Below, in pieces: positions 6,041-48,009 of a DNA stretch of 54,035 nucleotides. Source of the DNA: Fibrobacter sp. (GTDB lineage: Bacteria > Fibrobacterota > Fibrobacteria > Fibrobacterales > Fibrobacteraceae); the NCBI GenBank assembly GCA_012511955.1, contig JAAZFC010000008.1:1-54035 (forward strand), read 5' to 3'. Made by a program: the position numbers and the translations under genes. The notes beneath the pieces are model-generated. The model worked only from the letters and a program-made list of their open reading frames with translations, was not told where the DNA came from and searched no databases. The stretch's first letter is position 1, and the number at the start of each line of letters is the position of its first letter.

Positions 6041-6889
6041 ATGCGTAAATATTTATTTCTATGTCTTTGTTTCTTGGCATGCTCTAATTCAGGAGACGGT
6101 CCCTTAAACGCTTTTGATGAGACTAAAAAATGGTATGGCGATGGCTTTTATTTAGGTGCGGAACTTTCTTTAGGCAGAAAAGCTCATTCCACCAACGATA
6201 CTCTTCCAGTGGAACTTAAAAATATTTGGGTGCAATCTCATTGTTACTGGGATTCAATCAATGGTTTTAGTGAAGTTCAGGACAATCTATGGCATTTGTC
6301 TTTTCGTATCCCCTTAGTTAGTAGCGCCGATATAAATTGCGCCACTGCACAGTTTTTTGACACTACCTTGTTAGTTGCTCCAGCTAAGTCTTGGGAAAAT
6401 ATTGAAAAAATCATTATTTGGGGCGCTGACACCGCCGTGGCACTAAGCTTAGAAGAACCAGAATTGAGTTTTACTCAAAAATATGAAGTTGTTTTAGATA
6501 GCGTGTTTTTGTTGGCAGGAGAAAATCAAGATAGCAGTTTTAGCGTGGTTTTAGATTCGACTTTCTTAGCGGATAAACCTGTTTTACAAGGTGAAAACCC
6601 TTGGGTTTATCGTTATACAGATACGCTTTCTGAAGAACCGCAAAGATTTACTTTTTGGGTGGAAAAGCTACCATCAAAAAGCTTTTATAACCGAACTAAA
6701 AGTAATTTTTTAGGAAATTTGCGACTGGAGTTTTGGCGAGAGTTGTTTGTGTGCGAACAGCTCGATTCTTTAAGTGAGCTTTGCCAAGCTCAGAACTATG
6801 CTGTGTGGGATTTAGAAAACAACGAAGAGGTTTTAGACAGTGAATTTATCGCACAGTTGGTTCAACAAATAGGATTAGAAGGTGAGTGA
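6041..6889 (+). CDS. Putative lipoprotein of unknown function
   Basis: Starts directly after the upstream stop codon. The N-terminus has a short basic-hydrophobic signal ending in a lipobox (CFLAC-S, Cys14), so it should be lipidated and anchored in the periplasm or outer membrane. The remaining 265 residues are acidic with beta-strand-like patches (YEVVLDSVFLLAG, SFSVVLDSTFL) and no motif I recognise. The two strands containing VLDS look like an internal repeat. It is the third gene of a tightly coupled set with the STAS-anchor and degenerate LytM proteins, suggesting a shared envelope function. I cannot name a family. Confidence 0.6.
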   Translation: MRKYLFLCLCFLACSNSGDGPLNAFDETKKWYGDGFYLGAELSLGRKAHSTNDTLPVELKNIWVQSHCYWDSINGFSEVQDNLWHLSFRIPLVSSADINCATAQFFDTTLLVAPAKSWENIEKIIIWGADTAVALSLEEPELSFTQKYEVVLDSVFLLAGENQDSSFSVVLDSTFLADKPVLQGENPWVYRYTDTLSEEPQRFTFWVEKLPSKSFYNRTKSNFLGNLRLEFWRELFVCEQLDSLSELCQAQNYAVWDLENNEEVLDSEFIAQLVQQIGLEGE

Positions 6890-8027
6890 ACAAAGTATTT
6901 CAGCGGCACAAATATTCGATGGGTGTAGTTTTCAGTCTCAAAAGCAAATAATATGGGAAAAAGACCATATTATTGCAATTAAAGATTGTTCAAAACTGCC
7001 TCAAAATTCAAAAATTATTTTACCAGGTTTTATCAACTTACACTGCCATTTAGAACTCACTGCTTTAGAGGGATTATTGCCCCAAAAAAAGGATTTTCCC
7101 CAATGGGTGGAAGTGTTGCAAAAGCATACGGCGGCTTTTTCTACCCATGATTGGGAAAAGTCTGTGCAAAAAGGTTTGGATTTATCGCTGCAATCGGGAG
7201 TGACTAGCATATTTGATGTGGGGAACAGCGGTGCAACTTGGTCTGCTGAAATATCTACTCCTATACGCTTATGGGCTGCTGTGGAGCTATTGGGAAATGC
7301 AGGAGAAGACACGCTGCCTCCGCCTTTGGGCCCACCAAAACATCGCCGGGGTTATAGTGCCCATGCTTTGTATTCTTGTGGTGGAGATTGCTGGCACAAA
7401 GCGAAGGATTTCTGCCAAAAAAATGATTTTCCCTTTAGCTTTCATTTGGCCGAAAGCCTGGCGGAGCATAAACTGCTAACCCAAGGACAAGGCATTATGC
7501 GTAGCTGGCTAGATGCCAAAACTCCTCACCATAATTTTAAAAAGCCGGGTCTAGCTCCTTTAGCGCGGGCACTGAAATTAGGAGTTTTGCAAGGGAGCAT
7601 AGCGGTGCATGGCAACACTTTAAGCCCAGAAGATTTACAGAATTTGGCGCAAAACCAGTGTGGATTGGTGCATTGTCCTCAAAGTGCGGAATGGTTTGGA
7701 CATCCTCCTTTAGATATGCTAAGCTGCGACAAAAGCGATTTGCCTGTGAGTATAGGCAGTGATAGTTTAGCCTCTGCACATTCTCTGAGTTTGTGGGAGC
7801 AAATGGCTGTTTTTGCGAAAAACCATCCCCATTATTCTGTGGAAGAAGTGCTAGCGCGAGTAACTGCAGTGCCAGCGCAAATTTTAGGTGAAGAAAGCTC
7901 TCTGGGTAGCTTAACGCCTGGGAGTAAAGCTGACTTTATGGTGGTAGAATGGGGCCAAAACTGGGAGCAACTTCCCCAAGTACAGCAAGTTTATATATCA
8001 GGAAAATTAGTTTATGAAAATATCTAA
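6882..8027 (+). CDS. mqnX: Amidohydrolase, probable aminodeoxyfutalosine deaminase (MqnX-like)
   Basis: GTG start overlapping the previous gene by 8 bases. An amidohydrolase-superfamily enzyme with the metal motif HCHLE (His54, His56) after the beta-strand ILPGFIN, then FHLAES, VHGNTLS, VHCPQSAEWF and the Asp in IGSDSLAS, all in the order of ATZ/TRZ-type deaminases. The short composite domain and the HLE-L form resemble the Campylobacterota-type 6-amino-6-deoxyfutalosine deaminase, which converts aminodeoxyfutalosine to futalosine in menaquinone synthesis. MqnE, which makes that substrate, is encoded at 21123 in this window. A different amino-purine or guanine-type deaminase remains possible. 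It overlaps pdxA by 14 bases. Confidence 0.7.
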   Translation: MSEQSISAAQIFDGCSFQSQKQIIWEKDHIIAIKDCSKLPQNSKIILPGFINLHCHLELTALEGLLPQKKDFPQWVEVLQKHTAAFSTHDWEKSVQKGLDLSLQSGVTSIFDVGNSGATWSAEISTPIRLWAAVELLGNAGEDTLPPPLGPPKHRRGYSAHALYSCGGDCWHKAKDFCQKNDFPFSFHLAESLAEHKLLTQGQGIMRSWLDAKTPHHNFKKPGLAPLARALKLGVLQGSIAVHGNTLSPEDLQNLAQNQCGLVHCPQSAEWFGHPPLDMLSCDKSDLPVSIGSDSLASAHSLSLWEQMAVFAKNHPHYSVEEVLARVTAVPAQILGEESSLGSLTPGSKADFMVVEWGQNWEQLPQVQQVYISGKLVYENI

Positions 8028-21122: not shown

Positions 21123-22196
21123 ATGTGGCAAAGCATAAAAGATAAAGTTAAACAAAAACATCGATTAACCAAAACCGAGGCCCTTTGGCTTTACGAGCAA
21201 GCACCTGCTCAAGATTTATACGATTTAGCAAATTTTGTTAAAATTCAAAAACACGGCAAAAATATATACTGGGTTAATAACAGACATATAAATTATACCA
21301 ATGTTTGTGTGCTAAATTGCAGATTTTGCGCCTTTTCTAAGATAAAAAAAGATAGTCCCACAGCTTATAATTGGAGCCCTGCAGAAGTTTTAGCCAAAGC
21401 CCAAGAATCCGTGGACCAAGGAGCCCAAGAGCTTCATATTGTGGGCGGCTTGCATCCTGATCATCCTTTGCAATATTACATAGATATGCTGAGCAATTTA
21501 CGAGCGCAGTTTCCCACAGTTTCCCTTAAAGCTTTTACCGCCGTCGAACTAATTCACTTTGCGCAAATAGCTGACATTAGCGTCGCTGAAGTTTTGCAAC
21601 GCTTAAAAGACGCCGGTTTGCAAGCTTTGCCCGGGGGTGGGGCAGAAATTTTAGTGCCCGAAGTTCGCCAGGAAATTTGCGGAGAAAAAGAAAGCGGCGA
21701 ACAGTGGTTGCAAGTGCATCGCACCGCCCACGAAATGGGGATTCCCAGCAATGCCACCATGCTTTTTGGACATATAGAAAGCTTGCAGCATAGGGTGGAG
21801 CATTTGGCCATGATTAGAGATTTAGAAGACCGTGCGCCGGGCTTTTTTGCCTTTATTCCTTTAGTTTTTCACCCAGAAAACAATGCTTTGGGCCAGCGCC
21901 TTAAAAAAATGACATCCCCAGAAGATCGTTTGCGTACTATTGCGGTGTCGCGTTTGTTTTTAGATAATATTCCCCATATTAAGGCTTACTGGGTGCAAAT
22001 GGGCATAGATGTAGCCCAGCAAGCTCTTTTGGCAGGGGCCAGCGACTTAGATGGAACCATTGCTGAAGAGAAGATCACCTCGGCAGCTGGAGCCCAAAGT
22101 GCTCAGGGATTGAGTGTGGCGCAAATGAATTCTATTATAAAAGAAGTTGGCTGCGTTCCTGTGGAACGCAATGGTTTATATGAAAACATTCCATGA
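21123..22196 (+). CDS. mqnE: Aminofutalosine synthase (radical SAM)
   Basis: Radical SAM enzyme that joins 3-[(1-carboxyvinyl)oxy]benzoate to SAM-derived adenosine, giving aminodeoxyfutalosine for menaquinone. The cluster motif is CVLNCRFC (Cys-x3-Cys-x2-Cys) after WVNNRHINYTNV; then ELHIVGGLHPD, AFTAVELIHFA, LPGGGAEI, NATMLFGHIE and FIPLVFHPEN, all MqnE hallmarks that separate it from the cyclase MqnC. 357 residues, normal. It implies a futalosine pathway; the deaminase candidate is at 6882. MqnA, MqnC and MqnD are not in the window. Confidence 0.93.
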   Translation: MWQSIKDKVKQKHRLTKTEALWLYEQAPAQDLYDLANFVKIQKHGKNIYWVNNRHINYTNVCVLNCRFCAFSKIKKDSPTAYNWSPAEVLAKAQESVDQGAQELHIVGGLHPDHPLQYYIDMLSNLRAQFPTVSLKAFTAVELIHFAQIADISVAEVLQRLKDAGLQALPGGGAEILVPEVRQEICGEKESGEQWLQVHRTAHEMGIPSNATMLFGHIESLQHRVEHLAMIRDLEDRAPGFFAFIPLVFHPENNALGQRLKKMTSPEDRLRTIAVSRLFLDNIPHIKAYWVQMGIDVAQQALLAGASDLDGTIAEEKITSAAGAQSAQGLSVAQMNSIIKEVGCVPVERNGLYENIP

Positions 22197-22244: not shown

Positions 22245-23363
22245 ATGACAGTAAAATATACACTTGTGGACAAAGAAGATCGCTTAGCTGAACTCGTAAG
22301 CGTTTTAAATGAAGTTCCAGGGTGTGCTTTAGATACTGAAGCTGATTCTATGCACCATTATCGGGTGCGCTTATGTTTAATACAAATCACAGTAGCTGGT
22401 AAAAATTGGATAGTTGATCCTCTAAGTGATATTAATTTAAATAAGCTTTGGCAAACTAAAGCTTTGCAAAATTTGATTTTACATGGTGCCGATTACGATT
22501 TGCGCATGTTGCACACATTTTGTGATTTTACTCCGCAAAAAATATTTGATACCATGATAGCAGCCAGATTTTTAGGGGTGCATCGCGTTGGTTTAAGCTC
22601 TTTGGTGAAAAAATACTTTAGTGTTACTTTAGCAAAATCCAATCAAAAGGCTGATTGGACTAAGAGACCTCTACCTAAAACCATGAAGCAGTACGCGGTT
22701 TTAGATACTTTTTACTTACATGAATTACGAGAAATATTATTAGCTGATTTGCGTAAGTTAGGCAGGGAAGAATGGCATACGCAAACTTGTGCTCACATAT
22801 TGCAAAATTCCCAAGAAGATATTTTTTTAGAGTCAGATGATGATGCTTGGCGTATTAAAAAATCAAATTCATTGGACCCTAGAGCCCTGGTTTTTTTGCG
22901 GGAACTTTGGCATTGGCGCGAAAAAGAAGGGGAGTTGTTAGATCGGCCTGTTTTTAAAGTGCTTAACAACGAAGCTTTAATTGGAATATCTCGCCGAGCT
23001 GCGAATAATGCTAGCAATATTACCGCGCAAACTTTTAATAAGTTACCCCGTAACTTTACTGGAGATAGGCTGCGAAGGTTTTTGAACACTTTGCATAGAG
23101 CTGCAAAAATCCCTCAAAAAGAGTGGCCAGAGCCTAAAGCTAGGCGATTAAAGCTTGTAGATTCTCCCAATGCTAAACATTTAGAGAGTATTCGTAATTA
23201 TCGCGATAAAATAGCCTTGGAGCTAGAAATAGATCCCACTATCATAGCTAATCGCAATCAAATGGTAAATTTGGCTATGCCTAACAAAGATTGGGAAAAT
23301 AAAATAAAACTTGCTAGGCTTTTGCCTTGGCAATGGGAAATGCTTAAACCAGGAATAAATTAA
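22245..23363 (+). CDS. rnd: Ribonuclease D
   Basis: 3'-5' exoribonuclease of the DEDDy class involved in tRNA 3' maturation. Exo motifs: ALDTEADSM (Asp-x-Glu), LHGADYDLRML (Asp) and QYAVLDTFYL (Tyr-x3-Asp). The C-terminal half has HRDC-like helices (LDPRALVFLRELWHWRE, NEALIGISRRAA). 372 residues fits. The last base of its stop is the first base of the next gene's ATG (TAATG), a tight coupling. Confidence 0.9.
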   Translation: MTVKYTLVDKEDRLAELVSVLNEVPGCALDTEADSMHHYRVRLCLIQITVAGKNWIVDPLSDINLNKLWQTKALQNLILHGADYDLRMLHTFCDFTPQKIFDTMIAARFLGVHRVGLSSLVKKYFSVTLAKSNQKADWTKRPLPKTMKQYAVLDTFYLHELREILLADLRKLGREEWHTQTCAHILQNSQEDIFLESDDDAWRIKKSNSLDPRALVFLRELWHWREKEGELLDRPVFKVLNNEALIGISRRAANNASNITAQTFNKLPRNFTGDRLRRFLNTLHRAAKIPQKEWPEPKARRLKLVDSPNAKHLESIRNYRDKIALELEIDPTIIANRNQMVNLAMPNKDWENKIKLARLLPWQWEMLKPGIN

Positions 23364-23917
23364 TGGCTATTAGAACTCGTCATTTAGTTGCTGCTAAGCT
23401 TAGAACTATGACCCCCCAAGCCTTGCGAGAAGAAAGCGCAAATATTGTTAGGCTTATCACTGAATGGTCTGTTTTTCAAGAAGCCGAAGTAGTGGCAGGT
23501 TTTTATCCCACCCATCAAGAACCGCAAATAAAGCCTTTATTGCAAAAAATTATGGCAGAAAAAAAACTTTTGCTCCCTAAAGTGTTGGGTAATGGTTTAA
23601 TGGATTTTCATCAAGTTTTTACCTTTGATGTTTTGCGTTCAGGAGCTTTTGGTTTAATGGAGCCTTCTCTAAGCGCACAGCCTTGGCTAGGTTCCGATCC
23701 CGACATAGTTTTGGTGCCGGGAATGACTTTTAATAATTTTGGTGAGCGCGTGGGTAAAGGAGGCGGTTATTATGATAGATATTTGGCAAAATCTAAAAAC
23801 TCTATATATGTAGGTTTGGGTTTTTCGGTGCAAATGGTGGCAGGGAACATTCCTCAACACCAATATGATGTGAGAATGAATTATATTGTATCTCCAACGG
23901 AAATTTTTAAAGTTTAA
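23363..23917 (+). CDS. 5-formyltetrahydrofolate cyclo-ligase
   Basis: ATP-dependent conversion of 5-formyl-THF to 5,10-methenyl-THF in folate one-carbon metabolism. Family features: the FYPTHQEPQIKPLL block, LLPKV, SGAFGLMEPS, DIVLVPGMTFNNFGERVGKGGGYYDRYL (ATP/substrate signature spanning about 113-140) and a final HQYDVRMNYIVSP. 184 residues, typical. Overlaps rnd by one base. Confidence 0.92.
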   Translation: MAIRTRHLVAAKLRTMTPQALREESANIVRLITEWSVFQEAEVVAGFYPTHQEPQIKPLLQKIMAEKKLLLPKVLGNGLMDFHQVFTFDVLRSGAFGLMEPSLSAQPWLGSDPDIVLVPGMTFNNFGERVGKGGGYYDRYLAKSKNSIYVGLGFSVQMVAGNIPQHQYDVRMNYIVSPTEIFKV

Positions 23918-23929
23918 AGCAAGGTAAAT

Positions 23930-24370
23930 ATGAAAGCTGTTTTAGTACTAGCTACTGGCGAAAGTTTTACAGGCACAGTTTTGGGAAGCGCTACCAATGT
24001 TCAGGGTAATATCGTGTTTAATACCTCGATGAATGCTTATGAAGATGTGCTTTTTGACAGTGAATTAAAAGATGAAATCGTTTGTATGACTTATCCCGAA
24101 ATAGGAAATACTGGTGTTGATTTGCAAAGAATTGCTCAGGAGTCAGTGCACTTAAAAGGGTTAATTATTAAAAGTGCGTGTCGAAATCCTTCTGGAGATA
24201 GGTCGAAAATACAAGTTTTAGAAGATTTTTTGCAAGAGAAAGGCGTTTCGGGGATAATGGGGATAGACACTCGGCAAGTAACCAAGATTATTCGCGATAA
24301 TCCAGGCTTAAAAGCAGGGATTTTTGTAGGAGATGTCAGTGTGGCCGATGCTTTAGCTCAATTAGCTTAA
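23930..24370 (+). CDS. Stand-alone carbamoyl-phosphate synthase small-chain N-terminal domain (CarA without glutaminase)
   Basis: The 146 residues align with the first domain of CarA: LVLATGESFTGTVLG, IVFNTSMNAYEDVL, DEIVCMTYPEIGN, LKGLIIKSACRNPS, GVSGIMGIDTRQVTKIIRD and GIFVGD. CarA normally continues with a class I glutamine amidotransferase domain (about 230 residues with a catalytic Cys), which is absent. The next gene starts 5 bases after the stop and no frame nearby encodes the missing part, so a simple frameshift does not explain it. Either the glutaminase is encoded elsewhere or this is a partner-binding or regulatory remnant. Good family match, unknown function. Confidence 0.8.
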   Translation: MKAVLVLATGESFTGTVLGSATNVQGNIVFNTSMNAYEDVLFDSELKDEIVCMTYPEIGNTGVDLQRIAQESVHLKGLIIKSACRNPSGDRSKIQVLEDFLQEKGVSGIMGIDTRQVTKIIRDNPGLKAGIFVGDVSVADALAQLA

Positions 24371-24374
24371 TATT

Positions 24375-25214
24375 ATGAGAAAAAGACAAAATTACAGAAG
24401 AAAGCGAAGCAGTCAGCATACAGAAATGCGTAGTCCGCCTCAAAAAGTGATTTACGGAGTCAAAGCGGTTAGTGAAATACTGAAAAATCGCCCTGGCTTG
24501 GTCCATAGAGTAGTGTTTCAAAAAGGTGCTGGTCGCGTAGAGCTTTATGAACTACAAAAGATAGTCAAGCGTTTGCATATACATTATCAGCAATTAGATG
24601 CGCGAATGTTAGAACAGCACGCTCCCAACCACGGCGGAGTTTTAGCTTTTTGTCATGAACAAGAAACCCTAAGTTGGGAACAAGTTTTGCCTGATTTAAA
24701 TGCTGTTTTTGTCAATGAAAAAAGCAGTGTGGTGGCGGTAATGGCCAATATTGAAGATCCCCGCAATTTAGGGGCGAGTTTGCGTTCGTGTTTGGCTTTA
24801 GGCGTTAAAACCGTGTTAATGCCTGCCAAGGGAATGTGTGGCTTAACGCCAGCAGTGGTGCGTAGTTCAGCGGGAACTTTAAGCAAATTGCAAATATGCA
24901 GGCCTAATAATTTGGAAAAAGCCTTAGAAGATTTATCGCAAATAGGCTATAAATTAGTGGGTTTAGATGGCTATGGTGAAAGCGCTTTAGCGCGGGTGGA
25001 CTTTTCAGGGCATAATGTGATAATAGTAGGCGGAGAAGATCGTGGTTTACCGCCATATATGCGCAAGCAATGCGATGCTGTGGCTCGTATTCCCATGGCT
25101 TTAGATGCCCATTCTTACAATGCTTCCGTGGCTTTGTCCCTAGCTTTATACGAGTGTGCACGCCAACAAGGATTTACAGGTTTGCAAGAACTTGCAGTTA
25201 TAAATATTGAATAA
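24375..25214 (+). CDS. rlmB: 23S rRNA (guanosine-2'-O)-methyltransferase, RlmB/TrmH family
   Basis: SPOUT-class methyltransferase. A basic leader (1-25), a substrate-binding domain with VIYGVKAVSEILKN and HGGVLAF, then the knotted SAM domain: NIEDPRNLGASLRSCLALG, SSAGTLSKL, IIVGGEDRGLPP and ARIPMALDAHSYNASVALSLALYE, the three SpoU motifs. Probably modifies G2251 of 23S rRNA as RlmB does; a tRNA substrate cannot be excluded. It follows the CarA fragment by 4 bases, probably the same transcript. Confidence 0.88.
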   Translation: MRKRQNYRRKRSSQHTEMRSPPQKVIYGVKAVSEILKNRPGLVHRVVFQKGAGRVELYELQKIVKRLHIHYQQLDARMLEQHAPNHGGVLAFCHEQETLSWEQVLPDLNAVFVNEKSSVVAVMANIEDPRNLGASLRSCLALGVKTVLMPAKGMCGLTPAVVRSSAGTLSKLQICRPNNLEKALEDLSQIGYKLVGLDGYGESALARVDFSGHNVIIVGGEDRGLPPYMRKQCDAVARIPMALDAHSYNASVALSLALYECARQQGFTGLQELAVINIE

Positions 25215-47094: not shown

Positions 47095-48009
47095 ATGTCA
47101 AAAGCAAATTTATCACTTACCAACGATCACATTTTTCATCGCGTTTTTGGCGTGGAGGAAACCAAAGACAGCTTGATTTATATTATCAACGAGGTTTTTG
47201 CTGATTTGGATCTGAAAAAAATCAAAGAAATAACCTTACTTAACCCAATTAATTACAGCGAATTTATAAAAGGCAAAAACTCAGTTTTGGACATCAAAGC
47301 CAAGTCTGAAACAGATGAATTATTTAACATTGAAATGCAGATTTCTGATGAAAAAGACTTTATCCTGCGCAGTCATAAATATCTAAGTCAGATGCACGCC
47401 ACCCAAGGAGAAAAGGGAGGTAAATACACTGAGATTAAACCATCTCACAGCATTAATTTTTTAAACTTCTCCATTGAGCCTGAGAGCAAGAATTTTCATA
47501 AATATTTTTTGATGACTGAATACACCGACAAGGATTTTACCCTTAATGTGTTCAATATGCATTACATTGAAATGAATAAAGTGAAGAAAGTCCATGATAA
47601 AAGCACTAAGCTAGAAAAAATGATATATTTTATGAAGAGGATTAACCAAACGGAGGATAAAGAAGTGGCAAGTTTAATAAAAAGCGATGCAAATATTAAA
47701 CGCATGTACGAAGATTACAAAAGGGTTATGAGCGACACTGATATGGTTCACTATTTTCAATCTTTAGAGAAAAAAGAAGCAGATGAACTAAACAGATTGT
47801 ATAACGCTGAAGCTAGGGGCGAAGCTAGAGGTGAAGCTAGAGGTGAAGCTAGAGGTGAAGCTAGGGGTGAAGCTAGGGGTGAAGCTCAAAAGCAACGTGA
47901 ATTTGTTCTCCGCTTGGTGCAACGACAATTTTCTATAGAAGAAATCGCTGATATGGTGGGCATCACCGAAACTGAAGTGCAGCAAATAATTAATTATTCT
48001 TCTAAATAA
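47095..48009 (+). CDS. rpn: Rpn-family recombination-promoting nuclease / PD-(D/E)XK transposase-like protein
   Basis: 304 residues. The N-terminal half has the Rpn opening (TNDHIFHRVFG, the usual DxxFKxxFG region) and the nuclease core VLDIKAKSETDELFNIEMQ: the Asp and the Glu-x-Gln catalytic pair. KYLSQMHATQ and HSINFLNFSI are also family-like. After a helical middle comes a run of six Glu-Ala-Arg-Gly units (about 239-262), then LRLVQRQFSIEEIADMVGITETEVQQI, a helix-turn-helix-like end. E. coli Rpn proteins are toxic nucleases used in phage defence, inhibited by a C-terminal fragment translated from within the same gene. In-frame Met codons at residues 204, 212 and 217 are candidate internal starts, none with a strong Shine-Dalgarno. 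Confidence 0.88.
   Translation: MSKANLSLTNDHIFHRVFGVEETKDSLIYIINEVFADLDLKKIKEITLLNPINYSEFIKGKNSVLDIKAKSETDELFNIEMQISDEKDFILRSHKYLSQMHATQGEKGGKYTEIKPSHSINFLNFSIEPESKNFHKYFLMTEYTDKDFTLNVFNMHYIEMNKVKKVHDKSTKLEKMIYFMKRINQTEDKEVASLIKSDANIKRMYEDYKRVMSDTDMVHYFQSLEKKEADELNRLYNAEARGEARGEARGEARGEARGEARGEAQKQREFVLRLVQRQFSIEEIADMVGITETEVQQIINYSSK
47809..47886 (+). repeat. In-frame 12-bp tandem repeat coding Glu-Ala-Arg-Gly
   Basis: Six full copies of GAAGCTAGRGGT (R = A or G; first copy ends GGC) plus a half copy GAAGCT. Units differ only at a silent third or wobble position. Copy-number change by slippage would keep the frame and lengthen a charged helix in the Rpn protein. Confidence 0.97.

Follow-up and report, generated by a model that had tools for sequence, protein, structure and literature searches.

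What is left for the small subunit of carbamoyl-phosphate synthase (CPS) to do once its glutaminase domain has gone? The question is raised by carA-N, a short gene in the 54,035-nucleotide stretch of Fibrobacter sp. DNA analysed here (the window), which is part of a draft genome, referred to as G000, of 150 contigs and 2.68 Mb that is 96.85% complete. An earlier note had offered two roles for the product, pairing with a separate glutaminase or docking on the large subunit, CarB, to give an ammonia-using enzyme. From the sequence comparisons below, the second appears to be the best explanation. It is quite likely that CarA-N binds CarB non-catalytically to form a CPS that uses free ammonia, and that this is part of a genome-wide switch of class-I amidotransferases.

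The carA-N gene and its proposed partner CarB

The reading frame starts with ATG. PF00988 is the sole Pfam match of its product (residues 5–129 against profile positions 1–124 of 126, E 1.3e-34; 119 bits, with a cut-off of 27), and this is the single match to PF00988 in the whole assembly. TIGR01368 is matched over profile positions 1–138 of 361 only, at 117.8 bits, below its equivalog cut-off of 307.35, and a search of PDB sequences aligned the product to residues 5–138 of E. coli CarA (E 3.5e-20). What is encoded is the first CarA domain alone, as had been thought. A CarA glutaminase (GATase) domain was found neither in the gene, nor in its flanks, nor in six frames of the genome, and the class-I GATase with a Cys-His-Glu triad by which a CarA is recognised is absent from carA-N. 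As the upstream stop codon is 12 bases 5′ of carA-N and the downstream gene starts 4 bases 3′ of its stop, no remainder of CarA is hidden beside it; the earlier view that no nearby frame encodes a glutaminase was correct. Judged by its sequence, carA-N is a CarA remnant after clean deletion of the glutaminase domain. An AlphaFold model has E. coli CarA and human CPS1 as its best PDB matches, though with a mean pLDDT of 59 it is too weak to serve as an argument.

Table 1. Positions in the window of carA-N, of its altered loop and of the adjoining genes
Feature	Position	Strand	Basis
carA-N, stand-alone CPSase small-chain N-terminal domain, 146 aa, without GATase	23930..24370	+	PF00988
Codons for D44-S-E-L47 (protein numbering approximate) replacing the D45-P46-S47-Y48 loop (E. 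coli numbering)	24060..24071 (by codon counting, about +/-10 bases)	+	Alignment, 49 full-length CarAs
5-formyltetrahydrofolate cyclo-ligase (context)	23363..23917	+	PF01812
SpoU-type rRNA 2'-O-methylase (context)	24375..25214	+	PF00588, PF08032

Elsewhere in the window are genes for an aminofutalosine-deaminase-family hydrolase (6882-8027, +; a weak match, below cut-off) and an MqnC/CofH-type radical SAM protein (21123-22196, +), a pair that suggests the futalosine route to menaquinone. An Rpn-family PD-(D/E)XK recombination-promoting nuclease/putative transposase is encoded at 47095-48009 (+).

Thirty-three positions of the N-domain are each at least 90% conserved across 49 full-length CarAs. 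L9, G12, F15, G17, G21, G28, F32, T34, V53, G61 and G64 are kept in all short forms (those of relatives are described below), as are the D114-T115-R116 motif and R123. The D45-P46-S47-Y48 loop, which is near-invariant in full-length CarAs, has been lost repeatedly across the short forms together with E71-S72. With 21 of the 33 positions retained, the G000 domain is the most diverged of them. Its earlier description as intact and well conserved holds for the fold positions, the DTR motif and R123, but not for the decayed loop and E71-S72. S47 and Y48 are changed also in the CarA of a relative, G006, which is full length but dead, and so these two residues track glutaminase function. (Ser47 of E. 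coli CarA is, we presume, in contact with bound glutamine.)

The carA-N and carB genes are unlinked in G000, carA-N being between folate and rRNA-methylase genes. The search for full-length subunits that had been proposed gave no carA beyond carA-N and a full-length CarB, of the canonical clade, on contig C82. All of the CarB catalytic residues checked are kept, and by this check the sites for carboxyphosphate and carbamate are intact, as is the ammonia gate (C232, A251 and A314); the residue lists are those we take to be catalytic, except for the gate, which follows a parallel with CPS1. The CPS1 gate consists of Cys648, Ala667 and Ala729 (PMC4655335). CarB positions that are invariant in the presence of full CarA and changed in CarA-N genomes cluster at residues 225–350, a region picked post hoc with the data already seen: it holds 9 of 13 such changes in G000, 7 of 8 in G014 and 8 of 22 in G065, with 4 of 61 in leave-one-out controls. 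D258 and F348 are altered in all three.

CarB alone might suffice, as seems to be so for CarB2 in CarA-less genomes. CarB2 is a second CarB clade with about 49% identity to E. coli CarB, and may be a small-subunit-free, ammonia-using CPS. Three genomes have it alongside normal CarAB with no second CarA (G016:C1:713680, L178; G037:C8:67097, L179; G004:C40:47150, L180), and it is the sole CarB found in the CarA-less G002 (L087), G070 (L086) and G073 (L182). At a further locus, L044 (G078:C14:80000-90000), CarB2 adjoins a PurF-like gene, two PyrG pieces (one from the N terminus of the synthase, 120 residues long, the other from the C terminus of the GATase) and a CarA that is degenerate and matches profile positions 2–89 only, full carAB being elsewhere in that genome; the PurF-like/CarB2 neighbourhood of G070 is similar. 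That the CarA-less genomes are the next step after CarA-N was considered and rejected, their CarB being of the other clade.

Short and dead CarAs among the relatives

Proteins of similar size, which it had been suggested to look for, were found among 80 related genomes. Stand-alone CarA N-domains are present in G065 (another family, 146 aa) and, in genus g6, in G005 (about 157 aa) and G014 (about 151 aa). G036, also of g6, has one of 154 aa on one contig; since it has a full carA too and 5% contamination, it is not relied on alone. We did not count the degenerate gene of G078:C14 or fragments at contig ends (G038), taking them to be remnants or truncations. The stand-alone forms of the three lineages (G000, G065 and g6) end at nearly the same boundary, by alignment at about residue 147 of E. 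coli CarA, short of the hinge that leads to the glutaminase domain. G006 CarA is full length with a dead triad (GFGLGHL; QFFPDA in place of QFHPEA), while Cys and His are retained in the other full-length CarAs examined. A related-locus search of GTDB genomes gave only full-length CarAs, from Halanaerobium and Nitrospinae-type genomes.

At one locus of g6, G034 has full carA-pyrR-pyrB where G005 and G036 have carA-N-pyrR-pyrB; the short form there is thus a clean deletion in place, and a selected one. Between G005 and G036 the dN/dS of CarA-N is 0.095, close to that of pyrR (0.093) and of the synthetase part of GuaA (0.082). CarA-N is under purifying selection in these g6 relatives, in which the supposition that selection maintains the domain was borne out; for the G000 gene itself, the intact reading frame and the kept positions point the same way. 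Random decay would give neither a common boundary nor low dN/dS.

The fate of the other glutaminases

CarA is not the only glutaminase affected. Just two PF00117 domains are present in the G000 assembly, TrpG and the C-terminal domain of PyrG, and both are without the catalytic Cys. TrpG, encoded between trpE and trpD, has GIGLGHH where the nucleophile motif is GxCLGHQ (Cys to Gly), and PyrG has FLAIGEAMY where its relatives have FLGICYGMQ (again Cys to Gly). Divergence of PyrG has been much faster in the glutaminase half (45% identity to G008) than in the synthetase half (74%); in the control, G006, the two values are 77% and 82%. About half of the glutaminase domain of GuaA is deleted, leaving no GATase match, and the synthetase half retains SGGVDS and its GMP_synt_C domain. 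PurL has a C-terminal GATase_5 with GVGNGAQ in place of GVCNGCQ, another Cys to Gly change. All five class-I glutaminases found (CarA, GuaA, PyrG, TrpG and PurL; HisH was not among them) are thus non-functional, judged by sequence. The N-terminal Cys is kept in the class-II (Ntn) enzymes PurF, GlmS and AsnB, and G000, like every relative that is at least 90% complete, has a glutamine synthetase (PF00120). Loss of glutamine synthetase as the cause, and loss of every glutaminase class, were accordingly rejected.

Relatives have lost glutaminases in parallel. GuaA has an intact GATase in 41 of 51 genes checked; the ten that have lost it or carry a dead one are from G000, G002 (Cys to Ser), G003, G005, G014, G018, G036, G065, G069 (second copy) and G070. 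(A Cys codon survives in the G014 fragment, though half of the domain, including the His, has gone.) A tree of the synthetase part requires six changes to the lost state, at least five of them forced by well-supported branches. The synthetase parts of G000, G065 and G069 have unusually long branches (0.77, 0.74 and 0.57; the median is 0.13), as though they no longer had to fit the domain that was lost. The catalytic Cys is missing from PurL in G000, G002, G005, G014 and G070, and from PyrG in G000, G014 and G065; G003 (98% complete), G070 (100%) and G073 (89%) gave no match to CTP synthase (PF06418). Loss or death affects both CarA and GuaA in 7 genomes, CarA only in 1, GuaA only in 1 and neither in 33 (Fisher p 2.3e-6, with descent ignored). 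When descent is taken into account 3–4 independent pairs agree and none is against, which is too few for significance.

Ammonia as the proposed donor, rival explanations and known systems

In E. coli, carbamoyl phosphate is formed from ammonia on the large subunit, whose carboxyphosphate domain is in contact with the small subunit (PMC6245113). For human CPS1 a path for external ammonia has been proposed, from the surface between Glu82 and His142 to the gate, that runs where the small- and large-subunit moieties meet and bypasses the dead glutaminase (PMC4655335). Residues 46–178 of CPS1 align to the carA-N product (PDB 6uel), and so the external path opens in the homologous domain. CarA-N would cover the face of CarB that leads to the carboxyphosphate site and, at the interface of the subunits, maintain the wall of the ammonia path, serving as wall, cap and stabiliser of CarB. 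With the glutaminase domain gone, ammonia would enter from outside, as proposed for CPS1. The glutaminase domain would have become superfluous while CarA-N stayed; where ammonia is plentiful, its direct use should save the ATP spent by glutamine synthetase. We infer the binding to CarB, ammonia as the donor and an ammonia-rich niche as the driver. Ammonia is reported to suffice as the only nitrogen source for Fibrobacter succinogenes S85 (PMC10499230). Genome features of the relatives, together with T9SS-type sorting domains, point to Fibrobacterota as the phylum of G000.

That CarA-N is a functionless, decaying remnant beside a CarB that works alone with ammonia is unlikely. CarA-less genomes with only CarB do exist, and the G000 domain has diverged, but the dN/dS between G005 and G036, the clean boundary common to three lineages and the intact, tightly packed reading frame all speak against decay, and the CarA-less genomes, with CarB of the CarB2 clade, are not an end point of the CarA-N series. 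A new role unrelated to CarB, in regulation for instance, is very unlikely: the distance of carA-N from carB in G000 and its position before pyrR in g6 could be taken to hint at one, yet neighbours differ by lineage, in G034 it is full-length carA that stands before pyrR, and CarB shows matching changes. An artefact of assembly or binning, or a full carA cut off at the end of a contig, is almost certainly not the explanation. The genome is a draft of 150 contigs, but the junction is clean, inside a 54 kb contig and 30 kb from the window end, and no six-frame match to a CarA GATase was found. The earlier note had taken full-length carA in relatives as the sign of an artefact; G034 has one, yet the gene is short at the same locus of G005 and G036, and the same short architecture inside contigs of other genomes argues against an artefact.

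The other option of the note, a stand-alone class-I amidotransferase recruited in trans by CarA-N on CarB to give a three-piece CPS, is highly improbable. Split amidotransferases are known (PurL/PurQ, TrpE/TrpG), and the CPS of Aquifex is split in another way (PMC6022934). But the search for an orphan class-I amidotransferase gave only the Cys-less TrpG and PyrG domains, the PurL GATase is Cys-less as well, and decay has reached the S47/Y48 loop, which is tied to glutaminase function; an orphan partner was rejected. There is a very slim probability that the ammonia-using enzyme is as we propose and that the driver was escape from glutamine analogues (acivicin, DON) that attack the catalytic Cys. 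Such analogues inhibit class-II amidotransferases too, and GlmS, a class-II enzyme, cannot use ammonia, so that retention of class II is explained without drugs. On the side of inhibitor escape are the confinement of loss to class-I Cys-triad enzymes, class II being kept, and the targeting of amidotransferase domains by such drugs (PMC8718007).

The preferred reading, CarA-N docked on CarB and supplied with free ammonia, has partial counterparts. Like E. coli CarAB (CPS II), G000 has a canonical-clade CarB with the checked catalytic and gate residues and a domain homologous to CarA residues 1 to about 147; unlike it, G000 lacks a glutaminase domain and triad, and its two genes are unlinked. 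With human CPS1 (CPS I) it would share the use of free ammonia and the S1 domain in which the external path is proposed (PMC4655335). CPS1 is, however, a single fused chain that depends on N-acetylglutamate and still has a dead S2 domain (Cys to Ser), whereas G000 has separate chains with S2 deleted and so falls outside the CPS I family. The dead-domain state of CPS1 has its bacterial counterpart in the CarA of G006. No functional glutaminase was found for the G000 enzyme and its synthetase sites and gate look intact, as expected of an ammonia-dependent CPS. Single-domain NadE is a synthetase without glutaminase for which ammonia use has been shown; it is of the nitrilase class (IV) and proposed to be ancestral (PMC3376133), in contrast to secondary loss from class-I enzymes. 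Aquifex, with CarB split and the glutaminase kept, and Pyrococcus, with a carbamate-kinase-like CPS of another fold, also have non-standard routes to carbamoyl phosphate (PMC6022934).

No report of a truncated or free CarA N-domain, or of concerted class-I glutaminase loss, was found in the open-access literature. The genome-wide pattern (every class-I glutaminase found dead, class II intact, glutamine synthetase present) is a stronger novelty than the CarA-N enzyme. A survey of about 600-800 genomes lists no glutaminase-free CarAB, GuaA, PyrG, PurL or TrpDE, only NadE (PMC3376133 Table 1).

It is likely that one phylum has repeatedly given up glutamine as donor for class-I amidotransferases (of purine, pyrimidine, CTP and tryptophan synthesis), in G000 completely for the enzymes examined, and lives on ammonia. 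CPS would then be graded from active CarA, through full-length dead CarA, to a CarB-docking domain that shapes external ammonia entry, with other lineages on CarA-less CarB2.

Textbooks present glutamine as the universal amide donor, on the assumption that free ammonia is scarce in cells. Glutamine synthetase and single-domain NadE aside, direct use of ammonia in vivo by these biosynthetic enzymes is unrecorded in the survey cited above (PMC3376133). If the reading is true, ammonia can sustain the core synthesis of purines, pyrimidines and tryptophan. CarA-N with CarB, and GATase-free GuaA, would be natural minimal enzymes for the roles of glutaminases beyond hydrolysis and for external ammonia entry, and the graded series (active, dead, N-domain only) would make the evolution of ammonia-dependent CPS testable in bacteria.
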